Part shown: one piece after another, positions 1-17,193 of the stretch
How positions within the stretch are numbered: the stretch's first letter is position 1
How the letters are laid out: every line of letters begins with the position of its first letter
IMG/VR virus record: IMGVR_UViG_3300024346_006511
Coordinates: 92,127-156,126 of that record
DNA: 64,000 nucleotides
Origin: a virus
Reading direction: 5' to 3' (one strand)
Translations under genes and position numbers: made by a program
The notes under the pieces: model-generated
What the model saw: the letters and a program-made list of their open reading frames with translations, nothing else
Databases searched by the model: none
What the model was told of the DNA's origin: nothing

Positions 1-1833
1 TTCGGCCTGTGTAGTTACATTTCCTGTTAAAGCTGCTTCTCTTAATTTATTTAAGTTTAACTGTTTACCGAGCATCATCTCAGTAGTCATTTCATCAGTT
101 AAACTTTTCTGGAAGTCTGTTGTTGATTCAGATGCAGCTCTTATGTCCTCCATTGACATACCTAACGATCTTGCTGCTGCAGCGGCTGCTGCTAATGCTC
201 CAGGTTGTTTCCCTATGCCTCTTAAAGTTGTGGCAGAGGCTTTACCTATATCTTCAAAAATAGCTTTAGTACTTATAGAGACGTTATTCATCTCATTAAA
301 CCTAGCTACTCCTGCTGTGACTGCATCAACAGTCTCAGTCATTGTCTTTTTATTCGCTGCTGAATTTTTAACTATATGAGCTACGGCATCAACAGATACT
401 CCGTATTTATTTGCTAACTTAATAGCTTGTTCTGTAGTTTCTTTGGTAAAGTCTAAAGACGTACCAAGAGAATCATTTATTCCTGCTATTGTAGCGGCAG
501 CTTCATTTAAAGGTACACTAAATTTTCCGGCTGCTGCAGAAACTCGACTCATCTGAGCTTGCATATTTACCATCGATCCAGCAACGCTCTTATTTAATGT
601 TACTACAGCTTCAGAAGACTTTTTGGCTCCATCAACTGCTAAAGAAATGAATGCTGTTAATGCAGCTGTAAGTCCTGCAAATACAAATCCTCCAAAAGCT
701 TTTCTAACCGCTTCTCCTGCTCCTTTTCCTTCTGCTTTTAGTGTTTTAAACTTCTTAGAAGCCTCCGATATACCACCAGTTAAGAAGCTAATTGCGCTAC
801 CTATAATAGGTATACCAGATGCAGCAGCTCCAAATTTCTCAAATGCTTCTATAAATTTTGGAGTGGCATTATTTACTTTTTCTATTTCAGTAGATAATCC
901 TTGAGCATAGTTTAAACCATTTTCTATCTCTTGAGCTGCTTTGCTAAGGTTTTCAACCATCATATCAGTGGTAATTACCTGAGCTGATAAGTCTTCTTGC
1001 TGTTCTTCTAATGCTTCTGCTACTGCTTTTTCTACCTTAAGCTTATCTTCTGCCGATTTTACTACGTTGGAAGCGTCAGTTTTCATTTTTTCAGCAGCTT
1101 CCATTTGCTCCGATTGAGCTTTTATATTATCTTGTTCAGCAGCTAGCTGTGCTTTTTTCTGATTTATTATTTTAACTAACTCACCTTGTGTTGCTTTTGC
1201 CCCTTTTGATTGTTCAAAAGCTTTTAATCCTTCCTTGCTGGATAGTAAAGCTATTTGCTTTGATAAGTCTTCACTCTTCTTTTGAGATTCAAATGCTGCA
1301 TCAGAAGCTGTTTTTCGTTGAGCCTCCGCATCTTTAGATATGTCTTTTTGTTGTTGTTTAGCAGCTATAACTTGTTCTTCAGCTAAAACAACTTGTTTAA
1401 TCTGTTCTAAAAGAGATACCTCATTCGCGTATAATTCTCGACCGAGTACTTCTGCTCTTTCTGCTAGCTCGGCTTTTTGTGCCTGTACTGATGCTTGTTC
1501 TGCTTCAGCTTTGAGTACCTGTTTTTCAAAAGCATTACGTGTTTTTGTATCTTTTAGCTGGTTCGTAGTAAAACCAGAAAGTTTTTTAGCAAGATCAATA
1601 TTATCTTTATATGATTTACTAAAGTTTTTTACTTGTCCTGCTATCTCATTACTAGACTTAACTGCGCGTTCGGCGAAGACAGCATCGGCTGCTCCAAGAT
1701 TCTTAAAGGCACCAGCTAACCCTTCAAGAGCTGCTTTAGCTTGCGCTCCTTCCCTATTGATCATTTTTAATTGATCTATACGTGCTTGTGTAGCTCCTTC
1801 GTTACCTTGTAGGGGATCTTTTTCTTCCGCCAT
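1..1833 (-). CDS. Tail tape measure protein, N-terminal part (runs off window)
   Basis: The frame is open from the ATG at 1831-1833 to the window edge, about 611 codons, with no stop. The product begins MAEEKDPLQGNEGATQ. A long charged, Ala/Lys/Glu/Gln-rich coiled-coil region covers about residues 10-290. A Gly/Ala-rich hydrophobic stretch follows at about 330-400, with further helical sequence after it. This composition is typical of tape measure proteins, which set tail length and occupy the tail lumen. It lies directly after the tail tube, gp26-like and frameshift-extension genes, the usual tape-measure position. A late-type promoter lies 16 nt upstream. The C-terminal part is outside the window, so total length and any lytic domain are unknown. 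The T4 counterpart would be gp29, but I see no specific gp29 motif. Confidence 0.8.
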   Translation of the reverse strand, partial: MAEEKDPLQGNEGATQARIDQLKMINREGAQAKAALEGLAGAFKNLGAADAVFAERAVKSSNEIAGQVKNFSKSYKDNIDLAKKLSGFTTNQLKDTKTRNAFEKQVLKAEAEQASVQAQKAELAERAEVLGRELYANEVSLLEQIKQVVLAEEQVIAAKQQQKDISKDAEAQRKTASDAAFESQKKSEDLSKQIALLSSKEGLKAFEQSKGAKATQGELVKIINQKKAQLAAEQDNIKAQSEQMEAAEKMKTDASNVVKSAEDKLKVEKAVAEALEEQQEDLSAQVITTDMMVENLSKAAQEIENGLNYAQGLSTEIEKVNNATPKFIEAFEKFGAAASGIPIIGSAISFLTGGISEASKKFKTLKAEGKGAGEAVRKAFGGFVFAGLTAALTAFISLAVDGAKKSSEAVVTLNKSVAGSMVNMQAQMSRVSAAAGKFSVPLNEAAATIAGINDSLGTSLDFTKETTEQAIKLANKYGVSVDAVAHIVKNSAANKKTMTETVDAVTAGVARFNEMNNVSISTKAIFEDIGKASATTLRGIGKQPGALAAAAAAARSLGMSMEDIRAASESTTDFQKSLTDEMTTEMMLGKQLNLNKLREAALTGNVTTQAE

Positions 1834-1871: not shown

Positions 1872-2135
1872 TTATTTAGAAGCCGTTGTGCTATAGGATG
1901 GAGAAATATCCGGTCCTTTTGGTCTATTATCTGTGGTTTGTTGTTGAGCGCTTTCGTTTTCTTCGTTTTGCTCTTTATACCACTCGTTAATATAGTTGAA
2001 AGTTAATCTTCTTAACCATATCGGCATGTTATACACAGTATGCCAGTCATAGCCACCTTTACCATGAAATACTATGTCGTGTATTTGCCGAAATAATCTG
2101 CTTCGCGTTTCCGCAGCAGCGTTAGGCGTCAGGCC
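1872..2135 (-). CDS. Probable frameshift extension of the gp26-like gene (gp51-like or tail-chaperone T-like)
   Basis: An open frame of 88 codons, stop included, runs from just after the T7 run to TAA at 1872-1874. It has no ATG, GTG or TTG start before its conserved-looking core, and in its own frame a TGA lies 18 nt before the GGC codon at 2135. The peptide contains RQIHDIVFHGKGG followed by YDWHTVYNMPIWLRR, then an acidic and Gln-rich tail. T4 has gene 51 in this neighbourhood, so the segment may be gp51-like. It is best read as translated by +1 or -2 slippage on the seven T at 2136-2142, giving a fusion of about 337 or 338 aa with the upstream gp26-like protein. An indel error in the homopolymer is the main alternative. 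Confidence 0.7.
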   Translation of the reverse strand, partial: GLTPNAAAETRSRLFRQIHDIVFHGKGGYDWHTVYNMPIWLRRLTFNYINEWYKEQNEENESAQQQTTDNRPKGPDISPSYSTTASK

Positions 2136-2886
2136 AAAAAAAGTTGATCGTCACAGGGACGTCGATGTCCTCCCCAACACCGTCTTCATCCACATGGTAG
2201 ACTTTAAATTCAACATCTGGTTGTACTCTTGCGTATTCTTCTCTCAATGCTCTTGCATCTTGAGCTAATAGCCCTTGGTCAACAAACTGTCTTATTGTAG
2301 ATACCTCTCTATCTCCATTTACTGAAGTAATAATGTACTTCATTCTAGTTGATAGTGTAGCGCTACTTTCTCTGTTGATTTTCTTTAGTCCTTCTACTTC
2401 TCTGTCAATGTTTTTATCATCTCCATGAGTAAGAAGTTTAAAAGTTACTTCATTACCACTTTTAGGTAGTCCAAAAGTAAACTCTCTCTGTCCTTGTTCA
2501 AGACTATCGAAATCTAACTCTTTATCTTTGATTTCAGTTAAATCAACTGTAATATCTTTACCGTTATATTGAATATCGTAATCTTTACCGTAAGATAATA
2601 TACGTGCTGCAACCATAATTGCATTTTTGTCTCCAATAAGTAAATCGTTGTAGTTGAAATCTGATACGATTAGTGATTGTAATAACTTATCAATTACTAC
2701 TCCTTTTTCAATGTAGTTTTGATTCGTTAAGATATCTTCCTCTTTGGCAGTCATATACTTCATTTCGACTTTACCACTGGCCAGAGGGTGATCGGATGGG
2801 TATAACTTACCTTTAGATGGAATGTCTACCTGTTCGGTAGGGATTTGAAATTTAGGCTTTTCTGCCTTTTTTACTTGATTTTCCAT
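2122..2886 (-). CDS. gp26: gp26-like baseplate hub / tail assembly protein
   Basis: This 254-aa protein resembles the T4 base plate protein family represented by T4 gp26. It has an N-terminal IPTEQVDIPSKGKLYP segment, then MKYMTAKEEDILTNQNYIEKG, then a beta-rich middle. The MTAKEED...N..Y...G block followed by L..SL is characteristic of this family and resembles the short tail-assembly chaperones of other phages. It sits between the tail tube and tape measure genes, where lambda-type phages encode chaperone G. It ends NFFWPDA just past a T7 run, and the next frame lacks a start. It is preceded by a late-type promoter at 2916 and by the terminator that closes gp19. Confidence 0.75.
   Translation of the reverse strand: MENQVKKAEKPKFQIPTEQVDIPSKGKLYPSDHPLASGKVEMKYMTAKEEDILTNQNYIEKGVVIDKLLQSLIVSDFNYNDLLIGDKNAIMVAARILSYGKDYDIQYNGKDITVDLTEIKDKELDFDSLEQGQREFTFGLPKSGNEVTFKLLTHGDDKNIDREVEGLKKINRESSATLSTRMKYIITSVNGDREVSTIRQFVDQGLLAQDARALREEYARVQPDVEFKVYHVDEDGVGEDIDVPVTINFFWPDA
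2136..2142 (-). promoter_or_regulatory. Candidate slippery heptanucleotide for programmed frameshift
   Basis: The coding strand reads AAC TTT TTT TGG CCT GAC GCC TAA at the end of the gp26-like frame. Seven consecutive T allow a +1 or -2 slip into the downstream frame, which continues GGC CTG ACG and stays open for 87 sense codons. The slip site is five sense codons before the zero-frame stop, a typical distance for recoding sites. Confidence 0.6.
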
Positions 2887-3009: not shown

Positions 3010-3495
3010 CTAGTAATTCAATATACAGTAATCCATGTTGATTGTAATTCCTAAATCAACTACTGCATCAGAAGACCAGTCAAATTGACCAAAGTCTCCG
3101 TTTGTAACGAATGCACCTTTAATGATCCATTCTCCAATTACGTCCCCTACAGGACCTAATACGTTAAGAGTTAAATCTTTTTTGTAGAAATCTGAATATC
3201 CAGCTCTACCAGTTACTGATTCGTATCCTAGTCTTGCCCATTCCATTACGGCTTGTGCTCCACTTGGAGTTATCGGATCGTATAGAGTCATAGTCATCTC
3301 TGCCCATTCTCTCTTTCCTCTAATTTTTCTGTATGAATTTATATGGTCTAGCTTTACTACGTTGTCTGTAAACGTAGGTGCTTTGACGTTTTTTATCATG
3401 AATGATGGAATTGCATCAATATACATGATAAATCTGTTTTGGACTTTCGGTTCGAAAGCTCTGAACATTATTTCGTTAGGATCTAATACTGCCAT
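3010..3495 (-). CDS. gp19: Tail tube protein gp19
   Basis: This 161-aa protein matches T4-type tail tube subunits in length and layout. It starts MAVLDPNEIMFRAFEP, then QNRFIMYIDAIPSFMIKNVKAP, a segment typical of tail tube proteins that also carries the loop before the first long strand. The middle includes YRKIRGKREWAEMTMTLYDP, and the C-terminus is a beta-rich WSSDAVVDLGITINMDYC. It polymerises into the inner tail tube inside the sheath. It lies directly downstream of gp18, as in T4. It has its own late-type promoter 16 nt upstream and a terminator behind it, which fits high-level independent expression. Confidence 0.93.
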   Translation of the reverse strand: MAVLDPNEIMFRAFEPKVQNRFIMYIDAIPSFMIKNVKAPTFTDNVVKLDHINSYRKIRGKREWAEMTMTLYDPITPSGAQAVMEWARLGYESVTGRAGYSDFYKKDLTLNVLGPVGDVIGEWIIKGAFVTNGDFGQFDWSSDAVVDLGITINMDYCILNY

Positions 3496-3533: not shown

Positions 3534-5276
3534 TTATTCACCTAATGTTGCACCTGTTGGTAAGATTACGAAATCAAGTGTAATGAATTCCGCTGTTTTT
3601 GCAGGCTGAATAAATATCTGCCCTACCAATTGGTTTCTGTCAATTACGTCTGCGGTGTTATTCGTGTCGTCCATTACTACTCTGTAAGCATAAAGACCTT
3701 GTCTCTGTACCACTGATTCTAAGTAAGGATTAACGTTAGACAAGAATGTATTTCTTGTTGCAATTGTATTTTGTTCGAATACTAATGATTTAGCTTGATC
3801 TCCTAAGAATTTCTTAAGGTCAATTAATAGTCTTCTAACATTTACTCTATCTAGTGCTGATTTTTTCTTCTGTAATGTCTTTTGACCGAATACTGATATT
3901 CCACTTCCTGGGAATGTAGCGATTGGGTTAACATTAGCACTATATAATGTATCTCTTTGAGATCTAGTTAATTTTCTTTCTGCTTGAATTACATCTGATA
4001 TTCCACCTCTAGTTAAACCAGCTGGTGCAAACCATGGTGCTGCAGCTCCGTCAGTGAATGTATATACACCTGGAATTACAACTGAGGCAGGAACGAACTC
4101 TAACTTGCCAGTTGAAGACTGCATTTGTAGCCAAGGCCAGTAAGTAGCTGCATAAGAACTATTAACTGATGCTGCATTTCCTGCTGCATTAGATACTGAA
4201 GTTCCATATGAAGATAAATCTACTACTGCAATATTGTCTCCTCTATTAGATGCTAATGAAATAACTGCATCTAATTGAGTTTTATGATCTCCGAATGAAT
4301 AAATTAATCCTGGAGCAGAAACGATATTGAAAACGTATTCGTCTTGGTTAGTTAAAATTGAAATAGCATCCGAATAATCTGCTGCTTCTAAACCTTGTGT
4401 ATTTCCAGCTGAAATTTCTGAGAAATGTTTGTTAGGTTCAGTTGACTGATATAAATTACCTGCTGCTCCGTGGAAAGATCCAGAAGATGCTACCGGTAAA
4501 GAACCAGTGTATGCTGCTGTTCTTACTGAAACTCCATCGTTAGCTAAGTAATTAAGTGTTTGTCTGTCTACAGATGCTACTCTAATGTAGTTAGATCTGT
4601 TTACATATGATCCTTTTGTAGAGATATAAGTCTGTCCACCATCTACTGATTTAGACTTATACTGATCTCCAATAATTTTAGCAACGTATCCTTCTGAATT
4701 AGGATCTAAACTAAGATCGTTGAATGATTCAAGTACTGTCTTTTGACTTAAATTATCATCTCCTCTTCTGATCAATAATGAGAATGTACCGTTCTTTGCG
4801 TCAACGTTACCGATTTCCCATCTAATATTTTCTGCGCTTCCGTCAACTAGTGACCCGTCGCTATTTTGTGCTCCTGCATCTCCTGCTCCTGTAGAGTTAT
4901 TAAGTATAGCTCCTTTTCCTAAAGTTTGGATAGTGAATGGCGCTGTACCTGCATCTGCTGAAGCGATTGTAGAGTTAGAAGCTCCAGTGAAGGAACCGTT
5001 TACTACTCTAGTAATCAATGCTGAGTTACCTCCTTGCTCAAAGTAGGACTTAACTGCTAGTGAGGTTAAAAATTCGTATTTGTTAGAACCAGACTCGAAA
5101 GTAACACCAAATTTGCTTTGGTAGCTACCGTATGAAGTAACCACTGTTGGTTCTTCTACTGGTCCGATTACTGTTGGCCCTATAAAAGCTGCACCAGCTT
5201 CTAATGGAGCGGGAGCAATAAAAGATCTATCTTGCTCTCTTGATAGTACCCCTGGGGAGATTAATGATTCTGCCAT
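3534..5276 (-). CDS. gp18: Tail sheath protein gp18
   Basis: This 580-aa protein is a contractile tail sheath subunit. It starts MAESLISPGVLSREQDRSF, the usual sheath N-terminus (SPGV...E.D). An early AAFIGPTVIGPVEEPTVVTS segment follows, then a variable outer domain. The conserved C-terminal domain includes NVNPIATFPGSGISVFGQKT, then VRRLLIDLKKFL and QNTIATRNTFLSNVNPYL. It ends in a beta strand with VILPTGATLGE. Subunits stack around the gp19 tube and contract at infection. It is the first structural tail gene after the glycan cluster and the 84-aa coiled-coil protein. Two late-type promoter elements lie upstream. Confidence 0.95.
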   Translation of the reverse strand: MAESLISPGVLSREQDRSFIAPAPLEAGAAFIGPTVIGPVEEPTVVTSYGSYQSKFGVTFESGSNKYEFLTSLAVKSYFEQGGNSALITRVVNGSFTGASNSTIASADAGTAPFTIQTLGKGAILNNSTGAGDAGAQNSDGSLVDGSAENIRWEIGNVDAKNGTFSLLIRRGDDNLSQKTVLESFNDLSLDPNSEGYVAKIIGDQYKSKSVDGGQTYISTKGSYVNRSNYIRVASVDRQTLNYLANDGVSVRTAAYTGSLPVASSGSFHGAAGNLYQSTEPNKHFSEISAGNTQGLEAADYSDAISILTNQDEYVFNIVSAPGLIYSFGDHKTQLDAVISLASNRGDNIAVVDLSSYGTSVSNAAGNAASVNSSYAATYWPWLQMQSSTGKLEFVPASVVIPGVYTFTDGAAAPWFAPAGLTRGGISDVIQAERKLTRSQRDTLYSANVNPIATFPGSGISVFGQKTLQKKKSALDRVNVRRLLIDLKKFLGDQAKSLVFEQNTIATRNTFLSNVNPYLESVVQRQGLYAYRVVMDDTNNTADVIDRNQLVGQIFIQPAKTAEFITLDFVILPTGATLGE

Positions 5277-5422: not shown

Positions 5423-5677
5423 TTACTTAAGGGAGTTAAACTCTCCAGTTTCTAGATTTACTGTACCTTTTCCGTACTTTTCTTCTAGTGATTTTGATAA
5501 GTTAACTTCTTCATTTCTTAACTTAGCTAAGAAGTCTTCTGCTCTTTCTTGTCTAGCTTCTATATCTAAATTAATTATACCTATTCTCCCGAATTCTTCG
5601 ACGATAGCTATATTTTTTGTTTTAATGTTTTCAAGTGCTTGAATTTCTTCTTGTGCTAATTTAGTTTTTTTTGCCAT
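5423..5677 (-). CDS. Small coiled-coil protein of unknown function
   Basis: This 84-aa protein is mostly charged helix (AQEEIQALENIKTKN, then EARQERAEDFLAKLRNEEV) and ends KYGKGTVNLETGEF. The pattern of two helices with a short beta-like tail resembles prefoldin-like small phage proteins. No function can be assigned. Its ATG touches the stop of the upstream 211-aa gene, so it is translated from the end of the glycan operon, although it may belong with gp18. There is no terminator between it and gp18. Confidence 0.7.
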   Translation of the reverse strand: MAKKTKLAQEEIQALENIKTKNIAIVEEFGRIGIINLDIEARQERAEDFLAKLRNEEVNLSKSLEEKYGKGTVNLETGEFNSLK

Positions 5678-6312
5678 TACATTTTATTATTAGGTATGAT
5701 TAAATCTGTATCTACTATTATTGGCGTTTTATTATTACTAAACCACTCAGTCCAAAATATACTTCCTTCGTATTCTTTTCCGTACTTCTGTTCTAACGTG
5801 TTATCTAGTTTATACATAGACGCCTCTATATCATTTAATATAAGAAAGTTTTTTTTAAAAGCCAACGAATGACCAGAAAATAATCTTTCATCTATATTCT
5901 TATAGTATACTGAGCCATATAAACAGTCTTCTCTGTTGTAGTCTTTTAATAAAGGTCTCGTAGCTAGTTTAGCTTTATTAAAGTATTTCTGTGTATCACC
6001 TTTAAATTCAATCTTATCTCCTATCAAGTTAGGTTTAAATTTTACTATCTTGTCGTATATATCTATATTAGGTATAAGATCTAACGCTCTATAAGTTGAA
6101 TAAAAATAAGAATAAAGCTTTTTTTCGTACTTAGGAGGATCTACATAACATATCATCTTATTAGTATACTTCCTATATCTTTCAAGTTTATTTAACCATC
6201 TTGTATTATCTCTATCATTCCAGGTATGAACATATAAGTCATTACCTTTAATAAATGGAATTATATTATCGGACAGATCTTTTAAGTAACCTGAGATAAT
6301 TACTGCTTCCAT
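5677..6312 (-). CDS. Putative glycan-related protein, WavE-like
   Basis: This 211-aa protein starts MEAVIISGYLKDL and carries NDLYVHTWND at about 24-33. An ISG...VHTW pattern occurs in WavE/LPS-type glycosyltransferase-like proteins, but the similarity is weak and I cannot point to a catalytic residue. The C-terminal half includes SGHSLAFKKNFLILND and TEWFSNN, which also fits that family. It overlaps the SGNH gene by 13 nt and is the last gene of the glycan cluster before the tail genes. The function is inferred mainly from context. Confidence 0.5.
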   Translation of the reverse strand: MEAVIISGYLKDLSDNIIPFIKGNDLYVHTWNDRDNTRWLNKLERYRKYTNKMICYVDPPKYEKKLYSYFYSTYRALDLIPNIDIYDKIVKFKPNLIGDKIEFKGDTQKYFNKAKLATRPLLKDYNREDCLYGSVYYKNIDERLFSGHSLAFKKNFLILNDIEASMYKLDNTLEQKYGKEYEGSIFWTEWFSNNKTPIIVDTDLIIPNNKM

Positions 6313-7253
6313 GTTTTCATGTCATTGTCATACGCTTGGTACCCTTTATTGAATATCTTAGAAGGGTAATTTTTGTAAGGTAATTGAAGGTGTTTGTTTT
6401 TATTCCAGCTAGACCCGTAACCAAATAAACGATATTGGGGTTTTTCATTTTTTGCTAATTTATCAAAATCTAGATCAGGTTCGCAAAATACATCTTCAAT
6501 GTCTTTGAGGTATTTACTCATCTGTTCTGTGTATAAATTAGTTCCATTTAAATTTAACTCTTTATCTAAATACTTTGCGAATGCTAAATGTTGTGTTGTA
6601 GAAGGATGTGTTTCGTCTTGTCTCTTTCCAGGACCTTCATAATAGTAGTGAGGACGTTCCATAGGTACTCCCCATATAAATTCTTCTACACTTGACAATG
6701 CTTTTGCTTTATTAAAAGCTTCTTTTAGTTTTTCAAATGGATAATATTCTTTTATATAGTCTATATCTTTATTAAAGAAGCTAGTTGAGTATGGTTCTCC
6801 GTAAAAAAGAGAAATCCAAGGGTCTAACATATTAAAGGTAGCAAACTTACATTTAAGGTGCCTGCTAACATCTTTTACTGCTCTTACATAATTAATAAGT
6901 TTATATGCTTCGGCAACTAAATTAAAGTATTTATCGACAACTTTAAGAGGAATATCTTCTTGGTATTCTAAAGTACCTGGAGTTCTAAAGTATATGTCAT
7001 GTCCGTGAATATGGTCCCATCTAGTTATACCTGACCATTGAACTATCACAGTATCGTTCTCAGTAAACTCGTATTTGCTTAGTAAGTGAACAGCAGTATT
7101 AAAGATATATGTGTTTCCTGCGCCTGAAGCTGCTGCATTAATTGTTTCATCAAAGTCTGCTCCTAGAATATCTGCATATGTAGGATAAGCATATTTAGAG
7201 TAACTACATCCGACAATGAACAGTCTTTTCTTATTGTAATCTTGTATTGCCAT
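6300..7253 (-). CDS. SGNH/GDSL hydrolase-like protein
   Basis: This 317-aa protein has a nucleophile block VGCSYSKYAYP with Ser at about 17, a Gly/Asn block AASGAGNTYIF, and a late block DETHPSTTQH carrying the Asp-x-x-His pair. These correspond to blocks I, II/III and V of SGNH esterases, which remove or transfer acyl groups, often O-acetyl groups on glycans. No signal peptide is seen, so it acts in the cytoplasm. It overlaps both neighbours (13 and 23 nt), showing tight translational coupling with the nucleotide-sugar dehydrogenase. The last 80 residues are extra to the core and unassigned. Confidence 0.7.
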   Translation of the reverse strand: MAIQDYNKKRLFIVGCSYSKYAYPTYADILGADFDETINAAASGAGNTYIFNTAVHLLSKYEFTENDTVIVQWSGITRWDHIHGHDIYFRTPGTLEYQEDIPLKVVDKYFNLVAEAYKLINYVRAVKDVSRHLKCKFATFNMLDPWISLFYGEPYSTSFFNKDIDYIKEYYPFEKLKEAFNKAKALSSVEEFIWGVPMERPHYYYEGPGKRQDETHPSTTQHLAFAKYLDKELNLNGTNLYTEQMSKYLKDIEDVFCEPDLDFDKLAKNEKPQYRLFGYGSSWNKNKHLQLPYKNYPSKIFNKGYQAYDNDMKTWKQ

Positions 7254-8400
7254 AGTGCACCACCTCTATTGATTCATCTTTAGCAGTATATGATCTCCAT
7301 GGATCTAATACTATAGACCCTTCGGGGAATTCATAATCATGATGCTTGCCCATATGTCCTAATAGGTACACCGCTTTGTAGGGTACTGGTTGATCATATT
7401 CTGGTACAATACCTTGTTCAGCACAGAAATGACCTGTAAGTATTGATGTAGAGCCATCTTCATAGTCAACATCTGGTTTGTATGCTTTACCTAAAATTAT
7501 AATTGGTAACTGAGCATTCTTTGCTAAGGTTACTAGTTTATCAGCTAGATTCTTTGCTTGTTTTTCTCTAGCATTCATAATAGCATCGAATAAGTCATAT
7601 CCTATGTCTAAGTTTTCTGCCATATACCTTAGTGCAATATTGTCTCTAGGATGGCAACCTCCTCCATCTCCCATTCCTGCTTTCATATAGGAAGGACCTA
7701 ATATCCTTTGTGTAGATCTTTCGAGTGCGCCTGTTATTACATCTACATTAATATTACCTGATTTTTCAGCTACATCTTGTATCATATTAACTAAAGCTAC
7801 TTTAGTAGATATAAATGTATTGTAGAATATTTTTATTCCTTCTGCTTCATCCCAAGTACCTATTTCATATCTAGTACCTTCGGTAATAAATGTATGATAG
7901 AAATCTAAAAGTAATTTAGCATCTCCTGTTGTAGAACCGTCTTCTGTTCCAATAATAATCATTTCAGGGTTAACCATATCCCATTTTACTGTTCCCATAG
8001 CAATTAAGTATGGGTTATAGATAAACCTACCATTAGGAATTAAATCTATAAAATCTCTTCGTATTGTACCTGGTAAAACTGTAGATATAAGTACTACTAG
8101 TTGTTCCCTGTTAACGTGTTTATTTACTTCTGTAAGTACGTCTTTAACTATTTGGTAGTTAAAATCTTTATTAGGTAAATGTGCTGTAGGGTACCTACCG
8201 TCATAGTCTGGGTGATGAGGTGTTGGTACAGCAATAAAGATAAGTTGTCGATCTTGACATGCGTCTTTAATCGAAGGTACCATTTTAAAATTTTCAGGGG
8301 ATACTGTATTAATATCGTAACCTATTACGTCATGTTTTTCAGCCATGACTTCGGCTGATTCTTTACCGAGTTTGCCAACTCCTATAAATCCTATTTTCAT
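7231..8400 (-). CDS. UDP-glucose/GDP-mannose dehydrogenase family protein
   Basis: This 389-aa NAD-dependent nucleotide-sugar 6-dehydrogenase has a Rossmann motif GFIGVGKLG at 4-12, an IFIAVPTP block at 55-62, and the STVLPGT segment at 106-112. The central dimerisation helix EAEGIKIFYNTFISTK follows at 185-200. The catalytic Cys is in GMGDGGGCHPRDN at about 249, and a C-terminal nucleotide-binding domain has LGKAYKPDVDYEDGS. Family members oxidise UDP-glucose, UDP-GlcNAc or UDP-ManNAc to the uronic acid. It probably supplies an acidic sugar to the cluster's glycosyltransferases. It is the only glycan-cluster gene with its own late-type promoter element, 34 nt upstream. Confidence 0.88.
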   Translation of the reverse strand: MKIGFIGVGKLGKESAEVMAEKHDVIGYDINTVSPENFKMVPSIKDACQDRQLIFIAVPTPHHPDYDGRYPTAHLPNKDFNYQIVKDVLTEVNKHVNREQLVVLISTVLPGTIRRDFIDLIPNGRFIYNPYLIAMGTVKWDMVNPEMIIIGTEDGSTTGDAKLLLDFYHTFITEGTRYEIGTWDEAEGIKIFYNTFISTKVALVNMIQDVAEKSGNINVDVITGALERSTQRILGPSYMKAGMGDGGGCHPRDNIALRYMAENLDIGYDLFDAIMNAREKQAKNLADKLVTLAKNAQLPIIILGKAYKPDVDYEDGSTSILTGHFCAEQGIVPEYDQPVPYKAVYLLGHMGKHHDYEFPEGSIVLDPWRSYTAKDESIEVVHYGNTRLQ

Positions 8401-8434
8401 TGAAACTGTATTAATCTGTTATAACAATATATGA

Positions 8435-8442
8435 TATAAATA
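8435..8442 (-). promoter_or_regulatory. Late-type promoter element inside the glycan cluster
   Basis: The coding strand reads GCTATTTATATC, 34 nt before the dehydrogenase ATG and 14 nt past the radical SAM stop. It is the only exact copy I found in the 23-kb cluster. Confidence 0.6.
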
Positions 8443-8456
8443 GCTAAAAAGCAACT

Positions 8457-10355
8457 TTAAGCGCGGTTAATGTTACACCTCCAGTATCTATTCTTTCTTT
8501 GATAATGGTAGGCTAAGTGGAAGAACTCTTTATCTGTCATCTCTTCCTTATCGTAATGATCTAATGTAAGTGTTTCCTCTTCAACTCCTAAAGCATGTTT
8601 TACTGAGTCAAGTTTATATGTTCTAGTAAATGGGTATACTCTATCATTAGTATGACACATATCAATATTTAACTCAATAGCATCTGTTGCATCTATTTTT
8701 AGTTTATCTGTACAGAATTTGTTGAGTTCTGATTTAAGTAAGTCTATATTCTTATAAAACACTATACTCGTTGCTCCTTTATATTCCCAGAATACATCAT
8801 CATCACCTAATACCTGTCTACCCCAAAACTCTTGTCTATCAAAAACTGCAGTTAATGAATCTACCGTCTCTTGCAACTCTCTACCGATAAGTGTGTCTGT
8901 ATCCATAAAGTACTCTAACATTTTCTCTATAACGTCTATGTGTTTATATTCGTATTTCGAGTTTAGATACTCTAAGAGATAATGTCCCCAACCGTAATAG
9001 TACATGACTATGAGAAGGTGAGCTAATAAATGACCTCTATATACTTCAATCGGATTCGCTGCATTAGTTCCAATAACACCCCAGGTCTTTTCAACTATAT
9101 AGTCTTCTAAATCATCTACACTTAAGTAAAAAGTATCTAACGGGACGTCTCTAAATTGAAGTCCGTGTTTTTCTATATACTCTGGTTGACCCATTTCAGC
9201 ATTAAATGTTAATACTAAGGGGTGTACCATCAAGAAGTCTTTTTGCCCTAAATCAATTAATCTTTGAATACCATCTTTTAATGAACTGTAGGTTTCTTCT
9301 GGCATTGGCCATATTAGTTCAGAGTAGGTAGGTATATCTTCTTTTCTGTATTTTTCTAAGTATTCAAAAGCAGCATCATATTTAAGGTTTAATCTTCTAG
9401 AAGCATCTAATGTTTCTTGATGTAAAGACTGCATAGCAAAAGTAACTCCTTTAAAGAGTCTAGTTCCTGCTTCTTTATCTAACATTGCTATTTCGTATAT
9501 CCGATCTGAGTTAGCTTTAGCCCATGTTACGTCCCAGAATTTAGGGTACCCATTTTCGAGTTTCTTTTTTATTACGTACTTAGTTATATCTACATCTCTT
9601 GGCATTAATCCCCAATTAGAGTCACATACTGCAACGTATTCTATTTTTCTATCAGACATCCAATCGATCTCTTTCTCGACTCTAGGCATTTCAAAGGTTT
9701 TAATCTTTTGCCAATATAAATCTCCAATATCACAAAAAGTACATCTATAGGGACAACCTCGAAGTGTTTCGTAAGTAACTTGCCACATTTGAGGACCATG
9801 TTCCTTTTCAACTCTTTCCATAATCCAGTCATAAAAACCTGTTAGGATCGGTGAGGGAATTAAATTTAAGTTATCTGCCCTTTGTGGAAGGGGACATAAA
9901 GTACCGCCTTTAGGAAATACATGAGGGATATCATCATATGATTCTCCTTTCAAATATCTTCTGAGGATTTCTTTTGAAGCCTGTTCTCCTTCTCCCATTA
10001 CTGCGATATCAAACATAGGATACTTTTCAAAGAATTCTTTATCTCTTTTATCTACATTTGGTCCACCGGTAATAGTAAGACAATCTGGGTATTTATCTTT
10101 AATTAATTTAGCGAGTACTTTATTATATTCCCAATTCCAGACATAGGAACTTAACATTACTACGTGAGGTTCTTTTTCTAAAGAATCTACATATGTATGT
10201 GGATTTTTCTTTTCTATTAATACGTCTGCTACTTCAAAGTTTTCTTTTACTGCTTTACTTGTACTAGCATACATCCATTGATAGCTAATAGCTACCGGTA
10301 AAAAGCTATTAGGACCATATTTATCCGCTACTTGTATTAAGTATAAGTTTTTCAT
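8457..10355 (-). CDS. B12-binding-domain radical SAM protein
   Basis: This 632-aa protein has an N-terminal Rossmann-like cobalamin-binding-type domain at about 1-150, including LTITGGPN and AVMGEGEQ. The radical SAM core follows with RGCPYRCTFC giving the cluster ligands Cys201, Cys205 and Cys208, and TFAMQSLHQET further on. The last 200 residues are an unassigned helical domain. I do not see a DxHxxG cobalamin-His motif, so B12 binding may be base-off without lower His or lost. Such enzymes methylate or rearrange unactivated carbons, often on sugars or lipids. The ATG overlaps the upstream glycosyltransferase stop by 4 nt. Confidence 0.85.
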   Translation of the reverse strand: MKNLYLIQVADKYGPNSFLPVAISYQWMYASTSKAVKENFEVADVLIEKKNPHTYVDSLEKEPHVVMLSSYVWNWEYNKVLAKLIKDKYPDCLTITGGPNVDKRDKEFFEKYPMFDIAVMGEGEQASKEILRRYLKGESYDDIPHVFPKGGTLCPLPQRADNLNLIPSPILTGFYDWIMERVEKEHGPQMWQVTYETLRGCPYRCTFCDIGDLYWQKIKTFEMPRVEKEIDWMSDRKIEYVAVCDSNWGLMPRDVDITKYVIKKKLENGYPKFWDVTWAKANSDRIYEIAMLDKEAGTRLFKGVTFAMQSLHQETLDASRRLNLKYDAAFEYLEKYRKEDIPTYSELIWPMPEETYSSLKDGIQRLIDLGQKDFLMVHPLVLTFNAEMGQPEYIEKHGLQFRDVPLDTFYLSVDDLEDYIVEKTWGVIGTNAANPIEVYRGHLLAHLLIVMYYYGWGHYLLEYLNSKYEYKHIDVIEKMLEYFMDTDTLIGRELQETVDSLTAVFDRQEFWGRQVLGDDDVFWEYKGATSIVFYKNIDLLKSELNKFCTDKLKIDATDAIELNIDMCHTNDRVYPFTRTYKLDSVKHALGVEEETLTLDHYDKEEMTDKEFFHLAYHYQRKNRYWRCNINRA

Positions 10356-11683
10356 ATGTCTTTAGAGTACCCTAAGTTGTCGTATATTTTTTTTGTAATG
10401 TTAGTAATAGGTAGAATAACTCCATGAAGATTCTCTTTACCTTTGTATTCTTTAGAGATATACTCTCTAAATACTCTCTTATTATGTATAGCAATAGGAA
10501 TAGACTTTAACTTAAGTTCATTAAGTTCATCATCTGATTTTAATGTAATGCTTTTTAGTAACCTGGTAATAGCAATAACTCTATCAGCTTCAGAAACTAT
10601 CTTATCATAAGATTCGTCCCATAAAGAATCATAAGTCATATATCCCATATCTTTGAGTTTCTCTAAAGAAAACGGTGAACCCATTATTATAAAAGGATGC
10701 CCAACACTAATAGGTTTCCATATTTTTTCTGAGAAAAATATACATCCAGGGTCCATAACAGTTTCTGAAACTACTGATAGGAATGTACTTTCATAATTTG
10801 ATAAAGTAAAGTTTGTTGCTAAATTATCTACAGTTGAGATATCAATACTTCTTTCTCCTTCGCTTCTAAATTTATTAAACGAATTTTCGTTTATTACATT
10901 ACCTGTATAAATGTCTGAGTATCTTAATCTGTTTTTTGGGAAACTTAAACTTATCAATCCTTTGTTTATTATTCTTTCTTGCCACATTAGGTATCCAAAA
11001 AGAAGTCTATGGTTACGTGGCTGTCTGTTGTAAGATAAGAAATATTTTTGAGGATTACTAATTTTAGCATCAAAAGGTACAATTTTTTCTTCATCGACTA
11101 TATACTCCTCAGGTGGATTGAAAAATGTTTCGAATGAGCTGCAACCGTATGCATTTATTTTCAGGTTGTTAGCCTTAACATATGTATCACATATTAAATT
11201 ACCGTGTATTACGCTTACGCTATAATCAGGTAGCTCAGCTTTGATTCTCCATCTTTCAATTATATCTAGTTCAGTGTTTGCAGTTCTAGTATACTTCCCT
11301 TCTGTTGTACATTCAATAATTAAGGCACACTTACCTATCTTAATGTCCTCTAATACAAGTTTAGATATACAAGAAAAACCGGTATCTAAGTTTAATCTAA
11401 AAAAATTATGATTATAAACTCTAATTATGTAGATGTGTTTATTGTCACCTATGTCTTCTATTTCTACGTCCTCATAATCTTCATGGAATGAAAGAGAATA
11501 GTGATGATCGTTATACTTACTTGGATCCTCTATGTATGCATTAATTACATCAGGTGTAAGAGTATGAAGTAGAGTGGGTATTTTCCCACCTTCTTGCATA
11601 TTCCAAGTTCTAGAAGTGCCGTTTGGTCTATTGTGCCCTATTATACTGTCGTAGGGCTCTCTACTACATAATATCTTTTCCAT
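10352..11683 (-). CDS. Putative GT-B glycosyltransferase, paralogue A
   Basis: This 443-aa protein belongs to a three-member family in this window with the genes at 11664-13037 and 13947-15290. Shared blocks are an N-terminal NRPNGTSRTWN, a central YNRQPRNHRLLFG at about 218-230, and a C-terminal SEKIWKPISVGHPF at about 318-331 followed by a GY..YDSLWDESYD block. An S/T-E-K motif ahead of a Gly/Pro stretch is typical of fucosyltransferase- and exostosin-like nucleotide-sugar binding domains. The donor is unknown. It overlaps the next gene by 20 nt. Assignment to glycosyltransferases rests on this motif and on context. Confidence 0.6.
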   Translation of the reverse strand: MEKILCSREPYDSIIGHNRPNGTSRTWNMQEGGKIPTLLHTLTPDVINAYIEDPSKYNDHHYSLSFHEDYEDVEIEDIGDNKHIYIIRVYNHNFFRLNLDTGFSCISKLVLEDIKIGKCALIIECTTEGKYTRTANTELDIIERWRIKAELPDYSVSVIHGNLICDTYVKANNLKINAYGCSSFETFFNPPEEYIVDEEKIVPFDAKISNPQKYFLSYNRQPRNHRLLFGYLMWQERIINKGLISLSFPKNRLRYSDIYTGNVINENSFNKFRSEGERSIDISTVDNLATNFTLSNYESTFLSVVSETVMDPGCIFFSEKIWKPISVGHPFIIMGSPFSLEKLKDMGYMTYDSLWDESYDKIVSEADRVIAITRLLKSITLKSDDELNELKLKSIPIAIHNKRVFREYISKEYKGKENLHGVILPITNITKKIYDNLGYSKDI

Positions 11684-13037
11684 TGCCTAGTTTATCGTAT
11701 ATTCCCCAAAGTTCTCTTAAGACTTGTTCTGGTTTTTCGCTTGTTCCGTATCCCCACTTCTGAATCATATTTCTATAATGAAGTTGTTTGTTGAACTCTA
11801 ACACTTCATGCATTTCTTTTCTTATCTCTATCAGCTCTTCTTTACTTTTTTTGCTAAATCTATCTACTTCTTTAAGAATCATTTCTACTCTTAATCTGTA
11901 TTCCGTTACATGGTCGTAACTTTCATCCCACCATCGATCAAAGGTCTTATATCCTCTATTTCTTAAGTAATTTAGAGTACCTGGGTTTCCTAAAAGAAAG
12001 AACGGGTGTCCTACTTGTATAGCTTTCCATGTTTTTTCTGATATGAATAGTGTTTTGTTCTCTACTAAAGTTTCAGTAATTATAGAACAAAAGGTTGATT
12101 GAAAATCTTGTAAATCTATATTACAGGCTAGGTTAAAGAATAATTTTTTACCAATCTCTATCGGCAGTTGTTTATTTAGCTTTGCATACTCTTGATCTCG
12201 GATACCATCTGCTCTTAATACATTATTTGGAGTCCACCAATCTGGTTTACCTAAACTAACTAAACCTTTATCGAGTAAGTTATATTCAATTAACTTAGCT
12301 CCTAAATAAATTCTAGGTCCTCTAGGATTTCTATTATAACTAAGGTATAAAAATTTATTATCGTTAGGAATAAAATCAATTAATGGCTCCTCAAATTTAT
12401 CTGCGTTCCAATTATCAAAAGTATTATAAGGGTGTACTTTTATTCCTGAGTTTTTAATATCATCGTGTCCGTCTGCTTCTAAGTTTCCAGTAAAGAAGTG
12501 AACTGATCCTTTAGGAAAATGAGCTTTTTTCCTCCATTCTTCTGCTATTTTAAAATCGTCATTTCCTTCCATTCCGGAATAACCTTCCCATGGGTAAAAT
12601 AGTACAACTGCAGCATCACCGTTTCTTATATCATTTTGATATTGTTGATCGATTAAACTAAATCCTAATTCTCTATTTAATTCAAAGAATTGAGGATTAA
12701 AAACAGTTATAATATATAAATGATTAGCGCCTGATAGTTTATCTTTACTTTTATAAAAACAGTGATTCGGATCTATAATATGAGGACGATGCTGTAGTTC
12801 TAATTTTTCAGCATCAAACCACTCTCCTGTTTCTCCAAAAAAATTCCAGATGCCTAAGTTATAAGGGTAGTGAAAAGTACCTGTTTCTTTTTTATACCAA
12901 GTCTTTGAAGTACCGTTAGGTCTAGGGCCAGCAAAAATAGAATCATAACCTTCTTCACTGAGGTTAATCTGCAGCCAGTCCAATCCGTCCCAGGTATCAG
13001 GTATAGGTAGGTAACTATTTTCAATCTTATTGCTCAT
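11664..13037 (-). CDS. Putative GT-B glycosyltransferase, paralogue B
   Basis: This 457-aa protein is closest to paralogue A. It carries PRPNGTSKTWYKKETG near the N-terminus, YNRNPRGPRIYLG in the middle, and SEKTWKAIQVGHPFFLLG near the C-terminus followed by GYKTFDRWWDESYD. The conserved N-terminal block is missing or very diverged in paralogue C, so A and B probably arose by a later tandem duplication. There are no membrane segments. It is likely to transfer a sugar from a nucleotide donor onto a glycan or protein acceptor. The start overlaps the upstream SGNH gene by 11 nt. Confidence 0.6.
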   Translation of the reverse strand: MSNKIENSYLPIPDTWDGLDWLQINLSEEGYDSIFAGPRPNGTSKTWYKKETGTFHYPYNLGIWNFFGETGEWFDAEKLELQHRPHIIDPNHCFYKSKDKLSGANHLYIITVFNPQFFELNRELGFSLIDQQYQNDIRNGDAAVVLFYPWEGYSGMEGNDDFKIAEEWRKKAHFPKGSVHFFTGNLEADGHDDIKNSGIKVHPYNTFDNWNADKFEEPLIDFIPNDNKFLYLSYNRNPRGPRIYLGAKLIEYNLLDKGLVSLGKPDWWTPNNVLRADGIRDQEYAKLNKQLPIEIGKKLFFNLACNIDLQDFQSTFCSIITETLVENKTLFISEKTWKAIQVGHPFFLLGNPGTLNYLRNRGYKTFDRWWDESYDHVTEYRLRVEMILKEVDRFSKKSKEELIEIRKEMHEVLEFNKQLHYRNMIQKWGYGTSEKPEQVLRELWGIYDKLGNGKDIM

Positions 13038-13974
13038 ACTTCTTTCCTTTAATTACTTTTGCTAATACTTTAGCTATGAGTTGATGACCTTTAGGTGATG
13101 GATGAGAACAAGGTGTCATTAGCCCTTTAGGAGTAAAGTTTTTAAGTTCTCTAGGCCAGAAGTACCATAGGTGATCATTTCCTGCTAAATCATGTCTATT
13201 TTCCCTATCTAATAGTACATCTACCATTTGCTTTCTTCCTTTTGGTAGCATAGCTAAGTTGCTCCAATCTATCGTGTCTACTAAGTTTACAATGAGTCCA
13301 TCTTCGTCTTTAAAGCCTGGTGTAAAGTCTGTAAGAGCGTCTATAAGTTTTTCTCTTTCAAAAGCATGAGTAAAAGAATTAACTAAAAGCAACTTTGCAT
13401 TATTAAGTTTGCACCAGTTTTGTACTTCGACAATGTTTGAAATAACTTCTAAAGCTTCAGTTACAGGTGAGTATACTTCAGTAGCATATCCACTCCATAA
13501 GTTCTGTAGACCAATTTCTTCGCTATCAGTTATAGTTGGCCATATTGTATGAAAATAGTTATGACTATTGTTCAGACCTTTATTAAAAAAGTCAAACCTA
13601 ACCATTTGACCTACGAAGAATATTACTATTTTTTCTTTTGCTACTCCTAAGTTTAAGTCTGGATGAAGAGTGGTTAGAGCTTTTACTGTTGCTCTGTTTC
13701 CGTTACCTCTATATCCTAAGTTAATAGGAGTATAATCAGGAAAATGTTTTTTACATAATACATTAACGAAAGCATTATTATGTTCCTCTTCTCTTAAGGA
13801 ATTAAATTCATCAGACATAGGATTAATCATAGTCATTTTAGATTCTGACCAATCATATTTCTCCCATGTCTCTTTCGATACAGCTCCTTGACCTTCGACA
13901 AAAGAATCTCCTAAAGCTATAATTAACTTAGAGTCTTTATTTACTTTTAAACTTTTTCTGATGCTGTATTGCAT
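13027..13974 (-). CDS. SGNH/GDSL hydrolase-like protein
   Basis: This 315-aa protein has block I ALGDSFVEGQGA with the nucleophile Ser24, a second block GYRGNGNRAT with Gly and Asn, and a last block CSHPSPKGH with His at about 291. The Asp normally three residues before that His is replaced by Pro, so the triad may be a Ser-His dyad. It differs clearly from the other SGNH gene of the cluster at 6300-7253. The likely role is adding or removing acyl groups on a sugar. It overlaps both flanking glycosyltransferase genes, by 28 and 11 nt. Confidence 0.7.
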   Translation of the reverse strand: MQYSIRKSLKVNKDSKLIIALGDSFVEGQGAVSKETWEKYDWSESKMTMINPMSDEFNSLREEEHNNAFVNVLCKKHFPDYTPINLGYRGNGNRATVKALTTLHPDLNLGVAKEKIVIFFVGQMVRFDFFNKGLNNSHNYFHTIWPTITDSEEIGLQNLWSGYATEVYSPVTEALEVISNIVEVQNWCKLNNAKLLLVNSFTHAFEREKLIDALTDFTPGFKDEDGLIVNLVDTIDWSNLAMLPKGRKQMVDVLLDRENRHDLAGNDHLWYFWPRELKNFTPKGLMTPCSHPSPKGHQLIAKVLAKVIKGKKYEQ

Positions 13975-15290
13975 AATCTATTAAATTTGTGAAATCCTTT
14001 TGGAGGTTTAAAAAGAGCATTAAATGTTAAAACGTTTCTATTATATTTCAATCTAGATTTCATCCAGCGAAAATGATTATGCCATTCGTTATTATCAGCT
14101 AAAGAGTTAATGTTTTCTACTATAGCATCTAATCTTTCTATATTATCTAACTCATCATAAGATTCATCAAATAAATTATCAAAAGTAAGGTAACCTAGTT
14201 TTTTTAGTTCTTTCAATGAACCTTTAGCTCCTAATATTTGAAATGGATGACTACATGCTATAGGTTTAAATACTTTTTCTGATAAAAATACAGACTGTTG
14301 AGAATCGTCAAATTGAGCTTCACTAACTATAGTACACCATGAATTTAACATTGACTTTTCATTTAGTCTTGCAATCTTATCTCCAGGGTTAGCTAAGTTG
14401 TCTGTTCCATCCCAACGCATTGGGGTAAACTGATGTGAATGTTCTAACTGCTGTACTTCAGGAGACCAGCCGTCTATGTCTACAGCTTCGTGAAGTACTT
14501 CATCATTCCAGGGGTTCATACTTATTAATCCATCAGGAAGTAACCCTGCATGAAATAGTTTATTAAAAAGTGCTATTCTATGCTTCCTAGGTTTACGGTT
14601 TAGGAAGTTATAAGGTTTAATTAATAGTGGATTGTTATCTTTATATTTAAGGTGGTCTTCATAAGTAGGAATATTTTGACCTTTCCTATTATAGTGGTCT
14701 ATGTTAAGGTATACATCAAATTCAAAATGTGTATACCCAAGTGTCTGAATACATTTTTTACCTGTCTTTTTTTCCCACTCTTCAGCTCTCTGTTCTAGTT
14801 GAGCATTTCCTGTTGTAAGTATTATGTTACTCGGATCAATACTTAATCTAACCGCTTCATCGTAAAAGAAATCAAATAGCCAATCAGTATGGTAGCCCTC
14901 AAGAGTATTATCAAATAATATGTATGCTCTTCCTTCTCGTAAATGCTTAAGGTATGTATCGCTAACTAGATCAAATATAGTGCTATATTTTCCTGCGTAT
15001 CCTGCCCAAGTTAGAGGAGATTCATGAACTCCTACTGGGATAATATATTTAATGCTAGGGTCTTTAACTACATCTTCTACAGAGTATGTATTAATATTCC
15101 ATTTTATCTTATCTTCTCCTGATTGGAAAAATATCCAATCTTCAGTTCTCTTTTCATGAAGGCTTCTGTGTTCTGTCTTCAGTATATTTAACCTATTAGC
15201 ATACGGAGACAAGCAAATTCTTTCATTGCCATTTTTATCTTCACCTGCTAGGTTAAGAGATGTTTCTAAATTTTCAAATACTAGGTTCAT
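13947..15290 (-). CDS. Putative GT-B glycosyltransferase, paralogue C
   Basis: This 447-aa protein is the most divergent member of the three-gene family. It keeps FLNRKPRKHRIALFNKL in the middle, SEKVFKPIACSHPFQILG near the C-terminus, and GYLTFDNLFDESYD. The N-terminal NRPNGTS block of paralogues A and B is not recognisable. It also has the segment PVGVHESPLTWAGY, which fits a substrate-binding loop. The acceptor and donor are unknown. It overlaps the epimerase upstream by 17 nt and the SGNH hydrolase downstream by 28 nt. Confidence 0.6.
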   Translation of the reverse strand: MNLVFENLETSLNLAGEDKNGNERICLSPYANRLNILKTEHRSLHEKRTEDWIFFQSGEDKIKWNINTYSVEDVVKDPSIKYIIPVGVHESPLTWAGYAGKYSTIFDLVSDTYLKHLREGRAYILFDNTLEGYHTDWLFDFFYDEAVRLSIDPSNIILTTGNAQLEQRAEEWEKKTGKKCIQTLGYTHFEFDVYLNIDHYNRKGQNIPTYEDHLKYKDNNPLLIKPYNFLNRKPRKHRIALFNKLFHAGLLPDGLISMNPWNDEVLHEAVDIDGWSPEVQQLEHSHQFTPMRWDGTDNLANPGDKIARLNEKSMLNSWCTIVSEAQFDDSQQSVFLSEKVFKPIACSHPFQILGAKGSLKELKKLGYLTFDNLFDESYDELDNIERLDAIVENINSLADNNEWHNHFRWMKSRLKYNRNVLTFNALFKPPKGFHKFNRLCNTASEKV

Positions 15291-16293
15291 CTTTCCAGAA
15301 ACTATATAGTCCTTTATCTAATTCATAATTTTCCCAAAAGAATCTTTTTCTTTTTGGTTGCTGTTGTGCCCAATCCCACATTTCACTTAAACCTTCGTTT
15401 AACTCTACGGTATATTCGTATCCTAATATCTCCTGTGACTTTGCCCAGGTTGGATAAGCATCTTTAACTTCATGTCTTCCTTCTACATGCTCAACTTTAC
15501 CGTTTTTAATAACATCTCTAAGAATAGCATTAGATTCGTTAATACTGTGAAATTTAATTCCACCTAAGTTAATAATCTGTTTTGATGCTTCTTTTATCTT
15601 AGAAGCTTTATATAGAGGTTCTAAACAGTCTTCAATATTACTAAATGCTCTAGTCTGAGTTCCATCTCCAAATATTGTCATTGCTTGTCCATTCATGTAT
15701 TGATACATCCAGATACCGAGAACGTTCCTATATTTATCCCATATGTTCTGCCCTATACCGTAGACATTATGAGGTCTAATAATACACCAGTCTAATCCGT
15801 GCTGTTCTCCAGCAACTTGAATATCCATCTCACAGGCGTATTTTGCAATTCCATACGGGTCTATAGGTTTAGGAATATCTCCTTCATCAAAAGGTCTTTT
15901 ACCTTCCCAACCGTGACCGTATACTGCCATAGAAGACGTAAATACTAACCTCTTTACGTTAGCTCTTATACATTCATTAACTATCTTTGCAGTAGCAACA
16001 ACATTGTTATTATAATTATATGTTCTTATAAAAGGGGAGAGACCTTCTGCGGCATATGCAGCAAAATGGTAAACATAATCCGGCTGATGTGCTGAAAAGA
16101 TACCTTGGATGTTTTCACTCACTAAATCAGTCTCATAAAAGATAGTATCCTTGTGAACGTTCTCTCTAAATCCTCCTGATAAGTTATCTATACCCACTAT
16201 TTTGGTATCTGGGTAGTTTTTTCTGTAGTATTCAGCTAACCTACTTCCTAGTAGTCCTGCAACACCTGTAATTAGTATAGTTTCTTTACTCAT
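15274..16293 (-). CDS. NAD-dependent epimerase/dehydratase (extended SDR)
   Basis: This 339-aa protein has the N-terminal glycine motif TGVAGLLGSR (Gly10, Gly13, Gly16), DNLSGGFREN after strand 2, and YHFAAYAAEG. The catalytic stretch is FTSSMAVYGHG, with YGIAKYACE placing Tyr147 and Lys151. WCIIRPHNVYGIGQ and FGDGTQTRAFSNIEDCL are typical of UDP-glucose 4-epimerase-like enzymes. The length is normal for the family. It probably interconverts a UDP-hexose for the glycosyltransferases. The start overlaps the second epimerase gene by 8 nt. Confidence 0.9.
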   Translation of the reverse strand: MSKETILITGVAGLLGSRLAEYYRKNYPDTKIVGIDNLSGGFRENVHKDTIFYETDLVSENIQGIFSAHQPDYVYHFAAYAAEGLSPFIRTYNYNNNVVATAKIVNECIRANVKRLVFTSSMAVYGHGWEGKRPFDEGDIPKPIDPYGIAKYACEMDIQVAGEQHGLDWCIIRPHNVYGIGQNIWDKYRNVLGIWMYQYMNGQAMTIFGDGTQTRAFSNIEDCLEPLYKASKIKEASKQIINLGGIKFHSINESNAILRDVIKNGKVEHVEGRHEVKDAYPTWAKSQEILGYEYTVELNEGLSEMWDWAQQQPKRKRFFWENYELDKGLYSFWKDEPSI

Positions 16294-17191
16294 TGTCTTG
16301 GTTTTGTTCTATTATAACCTCTCTGAAAGTACTTACTAATTGGTCTATTCCGTCTACATATTGTATAGGTTCTAAATCAATCAGCTCTTCCATTTTACTA
16401 AAGTCTACTTTGTAGCTCCTACTATCATCAGGAGAGTAATACTTAACAGTAAAATCTAATTTATTTCTCGTTACCATTTTAAGTATTAATTCCTGTTTAG
16501 TAGTATTCAAAATATTATACCCAATATTTAATATACTTTGGAAAGCATTTTTTTCTGCAAGTTCTTTTAGTACCCCGCAGAGAGTATGTATATTGATATT
16601 AGGTCTCCATGCTTCTGGATCATATACTTCTAAGTATTGGCTAAATAACACATCCTTAACAAAGTTATTAACAAGTAAATCATTTCTACCTACTCCTGAT
16701 GTGCCAAATAAAGTTGATAGTCTAACTATTTTAAACCTATCTTCATCGTATTTTTTAAGTAGATTTTCAGAATCTATTTTTAGCTTAGAGTATAAAGAGG
16801 TTACTTTAGTAGTAGATAATTCATTAACCATATTCTTTCTGTAGCCGTAAACAGAACAGCTACTAAAGAAAATTACCTGAGTATTGTTGTTTTGGCAAAT
16901 ATCAAGGGTTGTTTTTAATCCTGCAAGATGAGGTAATGGTTCTTCTAAGTCATTTATTTCATTTAACCTAGGTGATGCCATATAGAAAACGTAATCTGCT
17001 TCATTAAGTTCAGTCTCATATCTACCTATATTCTTTACATCGTCATTAATTAACTTCACTTCATCAGGGTAACCAAAGTTTTGCCCATATGTTAAGTTAT
17101 CAATAACTTTTACTTCGTGTCCAAATTGTGGCAGATAAGTCATTAGTTGACTTCCAATAAATCCTGCGCCGCCTATTAATGTAAATTTCAT
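16286..17191 (-). CDS. NAD-dependent epimerase/dehydratase, second copy
   Basis: This 301-aa extended SDR protein has LIGGAGFIGSQL at 5-16, DNLTYGQNFG after strand 2, FFSSCSVYGYRKN, and the catalytic pair Tyr134 and Lys138 in LYSKLKIDSE. It diverges from the neighbour at 15274-16293 and is shorter at the C-terminus. It resembles nucleotide-sugar epimerases or dehydratases, and the exact sugar cannot be told. It lies 2 nt from the amidinotransferase stop and overlaps the next epimerase by 8 nt. Two SDR enzymes, a dehydrogenase and an aminotransferase suggest at least one unusual nucleotide sugar is made. Confidence 0.87.
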   Translation of the reverse strand: MKFTLIGGAGFIGSQLMTYLPQFGHEVKVIDNLTYGQNFGYPDEVKLINDDVKNIGRYETELNEADYVFYMASPRLNEINDLEEPLPHLAGLKTTLDICQNNNTQVIFFSSCSVYGYRKNMVNELSTTKVTSLYSKLKIDSENLLKKYDEDRFKIVRLSTLFGTSGVGRNDLLVNNFVKDVLFSQYLEVYDPEAWRPNINIHTLCGVLKELAEKNAFQSILNIGYNILNTTKQELILKMVTRNKLDFTVKYYSPDDSRSYKVDFSKMEELIDLEPIQYVDGIDQLVSTFREVIIEQNQDNE

Positions 17192-17193
17192 AA

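Follow-up and report, generated by a model that had tools for sequence, protein, structure and literature searches.

Frameshifting between the tail assembly chaperone genes G and T is widely conserved among phages, with T4 as an exception; depending on the phage, the slip is −1, −2 or +1 (PMC5009743, 2016). In lambda, a short product (G) and a frameshift-extended product (GT) are encoded between the tail tube and tape measure genes (PMC5009743), and the shift is −1. In the equivalent pair of phage Mu, it is −2. T4 has no shift site, and its long form is a second gene, in which a gp26-like copy is fused to a further domain: residues 5-203 of T4 gp51 align to gp26 (E 4e-19), and residues 201-251 align to the −1 extension of cyanophages (E 1.8e-7). 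Pfam family PF12322 spans both T4 proteins, and both are listed as hub assembly chaperones (PMC3004832). According to PMC10885494 and PMC12846349, short and long chaperone genes of T4-like phages were identified by Vladimirov, Gautam & Davidson in 2022 (Virology 566:9-15); PMC10885494 describes some T4-like phages as having, next to a short gene, a longer one that is a fusion, and PMC12846349 mentions known poly-T −1 sites in the short chaperone genes of T4-like phages.

The locus described here belongs to this family, but its slip is most likely +1. The window is a stretch of 64,000 nucleotides from a 156,126-bp IMG/VR virus sequence. The features around the junction are the following.

1-1833, minus strand: tape measure gene, first 611 codons (ATG at 1833)
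1872-2135, minus strand: putative extension in the +1 frame (T / gp51-like domain), with 87 codons past the shift and a stop
2150 to the TAA at 1872, minus strand: second open frame from stop to stop, 92 codons
2122-2886, minus strand: gp26-like gene in the zero frame, 254 aa, a putative short tail assembly chaperone equivalent to G/TAC-N
2124-2122, minus strand: stop codon TAA of the gp26-like gene
2129-2143, minus strand: putative shift site C.TTT.TTT.TGG.CCT.GA
2142-2136, minus strand: run of seven T
2135-2129, minus strand: GGCCTGA, directly after the T run
2153-2151, minus strand: TGA closing the second frame upstream, 18 nt before GGC
2169-2175, minus strand: Shine-Dalgarno-like GGGGAGG, ending 26 nt before the T run
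3010-3495, minus strand: tail tube protein, gp19-like (PHROG 4542 tail tube, E 7e-20)
3534-5276, minus strand: tail sheath protein (PHROG 23 tail sheath, E 4e-70)

The gene order is thus sheath, tube, gp26, extension, tape measure. Because tube and sheath lie upstream and the tape measure gene comes next, the G/GT position proposed in the initial annotation holds. The tape measure protein has 1344 aa in full when its gene is traced beyond the window into the whole record, and tape measure annotation is present at the syntenic Immutovirus and SP-15 loci. The gp26-like frame ends in AAC TTT TTT TGG CCT GAC GCC TAA; in the +1 register, the second frame translates as GLTPNAAAETRSRLFRQIHDIVFHGKGGYDWHTVYNMPIWLRR... 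The initial annotation had described two overlapping frames here, the upstream TGA, and a fused product of 337 or 338 aa, and these details are correct: a +1 slip gives 337 aa, and a −2 slip adds one Phe.

Very probably, the two frames form a single tail-assembly-chaperone gene of the T4 gp26/gp51 family, which is read in two ways by a +1 slip. Both frames and the motif that joins them are conserved, there is selection at the RNA level, and homology and gene position agree; these points are observed in the sequences and are taken up in turn.

The homology is clearest for the gp26-like part, which matches PF12322 (T4_baseplate) with E 1.9e-6 and 28.2 bits, against a cutoff of 24.5, and PHROG 150 (baseplate hub) with E 2.4e-10. 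Its AlphaFold model has a pLDDT of 88, and the BFVD matches are SP-15 and T4-like hub assembly proteins. For the extension, signals are weaker: PHROG 634, ‘baseplate hub assembly catalyst’, is matched with E 0.07, and a profile comparison with T4 gp51 itself is not significant (hhalign probability 0.1-1%). The extension profile does find the cyanophage extension, although weakly (hhalign 22%), and the gene position agrees; it is through these two points that the window extension is linked to T4 gp51. Judged by sequence alone, the relation of the extension to gp51 is weak. A search of the PDB for folds resembling a model of T4-like gp51 gave no significant match. In common with the T4-like proteins, the locus has the PF12322/PHROG 150 core, a putative gp51-like C-terminal domain, and probably a short and a long form. 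The link of gp26/gp51 to G/GT put forward in the initial annotation is right, but neither the family link nor the T4 arrangement is new, as both are already contained in what PMC10885494 and PMC12846349 relate of Vladimirov et al. (2022).

The second frame is conserved well beyond this locus. A protein similarity search yielded at least 80 related IMG/VR loci, and, relative to gp26, the gp51-like part is shifted by +1 in 80/80 relatives among the matches listed. A scan with nothing but a DNA pattern gave 74 distinct loci, partly on contigs already in the protein-search set; in 71 of them the +1 frame is complete, with a median of 90 codons and each open for at least 59, and the −1 frame is shut within two codons. 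Such consistency excludes both chance and sequencing error. Differences within the second frame number 9253, 6007 and 19347 at codon positions 1, 2 and 3, respectively; judged by this substitution pattern, the frame is coding. That the second frame is a decayed gene, beside a gp26 that is merely a structural component of the hub, has next to no probability. The database name of gp26, ‘baseplate hub subunit’, speaks for such a reading, but the extension occurs across the relatives and evolves under coding selection, and T4 gp51 is needed for assembly yet absent from the final particle (PMC3004832).

How the second frame is entered can be approached through its start codons. As the initial annotation had noted, the second frame in the window has no ATG, GTG or TTG ahead of its conserved core: the first GTG is codon 35 and the first ATG codon 38, both within it. 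The extension of 28/76 relatives has none of the three from the upstream stop as far as codon 20; in the others, candidate starts are scattered and not conserved in place. Conservation of the second frame starts at the slip site. The extension is thus apparently reachable only by frameshifting, as far as start codons can tell. A separate gene, begun at an internal start or by re-initiation after the gp26 stop, is very unlikely on these grounds, even though the conserved AGGAGG upstream in the window clade might serve it, the cyanophages retain an ATG just there in the gp51 frame, and two relatives do have a start of their own. In these two (L205:1700-1780 and L210:1700-1780), the gp51-like domain has an ATG a few bases past the gp26 stop, and the site is altered to TTC TTG TAT CCT and TTC CTT TGG CCA, respectively. 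A changed motif in relatives with an ATG of their own is as expected if the motif is kept for frameshifting. They were set aside as a refutation, being a minority of two with a changed shift motif; independent starts, named in the initial annotation as a ground for refutation, do exist among relatives, but only in this pair. A search of the 187,848-bp record behind L205 found no second copy of gp26.

The site itself is highly constrained. Among 143 distinct window-type sites pooled from the protein and DNA-pattern scans, 130 have [C/G].TTT.TTT.TGG.CCT.GA, and the rest are near variants, including TTC.TTT.TGG (8/143) and TTT.CTT.TGG (2/143, one of which is the cultured Immutovirus). In the pattern-scan set, the motif lies at most 12 codons from the gp26 stop. 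Codon choice in the zero frame was compared between the site and the rest of the gene in 76 non-redundant sequences, two of them (Immutovirus and Mel-JY01) from records of cultured phages. The Phe codons at the site are TTT in 76/76 and 74/74 cases, and the T run is always preceded by C or G (76/76; log10 P about −52). This choice is far from the usage of the gene and goes beyond what the protein needs, which indicates that the mRNA itself is under selection. CCT is equally invariant (76/76) but was not counted as RNA-level evidence: its third base is the second base of a Leu codon in the other frame, which constrains it.

Either a +1 or a −2 slip leads to the second frame, and the initial annotation had left the choice between them open. 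A −2 slip on the seven T, with one extra Phe, would resemble that of Mu, in which the same relative frame is reached, and perfect re-pairing two bases back is possible in 130/143 sites. It is impossible at TTC.TTT.TGG (8 sites), in GXN1 (TTC.TTT.C) and in LR756508 (TTT.CTA.TTC.CCT), and the frame is unchanged in all of these, so that several relatives of the window differ from Mu in being unable to re-pair at −2; we regard a −2 slip as improbable. By contrast, re-pairing of the tRNA one base forward is possible at every site, if CTT to TTT is counted as it is in prfB. This includes the SP-15, LIS04 and GXN1 sites, which are of the form TTY.TTT.(C/A). Since TTC.TTT.TGG, TTT.CTT.TGG and TTT.CTA keep the frame without a homopolymer, +1 is the only direction that fits all sites, and from their comparison it is the most likely one.

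Slippage of RNA polymerase on the T run could also give access to the extension, through mRNAs with added or missing bases, and most relatives do have a homopolymer at the site. However, seven T is short for polymerase slippage. Ten window-type sites and LR756508 contain no T run longer than four and still keep the frame, and a T directly before the run, which would lengthen it and so favour slippage, is strongly avoided. Variant sites without a T run thus argue against polymerase slippage, which we consider highly unlikely, and at most of these sites against −2 as well. The run of seven T, on which the initial annotation had placed the slip, is not what is essential; this is rather a Phe-Phe-type codon pair followed by T.GG.CCT.GA.

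The favoured +1 slip may be pictured as follows. Most ribosomes would terminate at the gp26 TAA and yield the short chaperone of 254 aa. A fraction would slip +1 on the Phe-Phe codons, with tRNA-Phe stepping from its UUU to the UUU that overlaps it and TGG waiting in the A site, and would make a long chaperone of 337 aa that ends in the gp51-like domain. We infer that the slip is translational, and likewise infer its efficiency and the exact codon at which it occurs. If lambda G and GT are a guide, the short chaperone may coat the tape measure protein, and the additional domain of the long one may recruit tail tube subunits; homology and gene position make chaperone roles probable for both.

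A second conserved element lies upstream. In most of the 76 relatives, AGGAGG or GGAGG precedes the T run by 26 or 23 nt; measured to the C before the run, the spacer is 25 or 22 nt in 72/74 pattern-scan loci. Glu codons in the element are GAG in 58/59 cases, against a pooled gene usage of 0.15. LR756508 likewise has the element 26 nt upstream, although its shift site differs. A consensus structure search found no conserved RNA structure around or downstream of the site, or one involving AGGAGG.

A comparison for this arrangement is offered by E. coli prfB (RF2), where a +1 shift takes place at CUU UGA with a Shine-Dalgarno-like element about 3 nt away. Both systems have YTT.TG at the slip and a Shine-Dalgarno-like element upstream, and in L041 and Immutovirus the site is exactly CTT T, as in prfB. 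The differences are that prfB has a stop codon in the A site where TGG is found here, and that AGGAGG lies at 26 or 23 nt instead of about 3 nt. That is farther from the slipping ribosome than the usual contact allows; the element may therefore act on a trailing ribosome or without pairing to the anti-Shine-Dalgarno sequence of 16S rRNA. To our knowledge, the 26-nt spacing matches no known stimulator. It is possible, if somewhat doubtful, that a previously undescribed class of +1 signal is made up of a non-T base followed by TTT, YTT, TGG, CCT and GA and of an indispensable AGGAGG at a fixed distance of 26 or 23 nt upstream.

In other large myoviruses, too, the gp26 homologue leads into a shifted frame. 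The heptamer T.TTT.TTY followed by a gp51-like −1 frame is found in the jumbo phages PA5oct, RaK2, GAP32, Serratia BF, Munch, Atu_ph07, XaC1, XacN1 and RAS14, in KVP40-like VH7D, phiAS5 and ACP17, and at every one of the 41 distinct cyanophage junctions; the site of Rhizobium phage RL38J1 is T.TTT.TTG. The gp26 genes of the T4 superfamily and of jumbo phages end at the same Phe-Phe as those of the window clade, whereas the latter falls outside the −1 X.XXY.YYZ class of T4-like phages, as its extension is in the +1 frame and C or G precedes TTT.TTT in 76/76 sequences. The base before TTT.TTT separates the two groups almost completely: it is T in 1/133 +1 sites, against 58/58 distinct sites of the T4 superfamily (cyanophage and KVP40-type). 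The single +1 site with T is that of L028, AAT TTT TTT TTC CCT GAC, whose nine T place it outside the 76-sequence set. Such avoidance of T would fit avoidance of the −1 heptamer T.TTT.TTT. Like lambda, then, the T4-like phages with poly-T sites differ from the window clade in shifting −1; they differ also in their motif.

In cyanophages, GGAGG stands exactly 10 nt upstream of the heptamer in 42/50 cases, a spacing that resembles that of dnaX. Cyanophage loci (L101-L180, L097, L215) have, besides the heptamer T.TTT.TTC, an ATG in the gp51 frame right behind the gp26 stop, and three products are thus possible: gp26, the fusion and gp51 alone.

The gp26 tree requires two changes between the +1 and −1 states. 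In this tree, T4 gp26 groups with the gp26-like part of gp51 with moderate support (87/53). The 595-kb phage LR756511 (L087:2800-3430) has a −1 site, GGT TTT TTC, and a gp26 that groups with the +1 branch of SP-15 and GXN1; it is a candidate for a switch point between the slip directions. In the Ackermannviridae phage CBA120 (L217:2200-2420), a gp51-like −1 frame follows gp26 in a region without annotation, and the junction, GAG ATT TTC ATT TAA, is not a standard heptamer.

Around the same Phe-Phe codons, related phages appear to have four solutions for producing both a short and a long chaperone: a −1 slip, a +1 slip, duplication of the gene in T4, and a start of its own for the second part. 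Their occurrence within one family is new here, and provides a natural comparison of what determines the direction of ribosomal slip. Also new is the AGGAGG at its fixed distance of 26 or 23 nt; for the +1 variant, no report was found in the searchable literature (a body that leaves out most subscription journals). The +1 signal is conserved in more than 100 sequenced loci, including those of cultured Flavobacterium and Microcystis phages, and is thus directly testable; the +1 site of Bacillus and Listeria phages is another one. Among the records inspected, the extra domain of the long chaperone either appears under a short hypothetical gene or carries no annotation, as in Immutovirus (L081:3366-3476), Listeria phage LIS04 (L084:3203-3432) and SP-15 (L096:3321-3440).

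Near the tail sheath gene, a run of genes at 5677-21344 of the window (minus strand) includes those for a UDP-glucose/GDP-mannose dehydrogenase, an NAD-dependent epimerase, a DegT-type aminotransferase, a B12-binding radical SAM protein and another radical SAM protein, which suggests phage-made sugars or small molecules.
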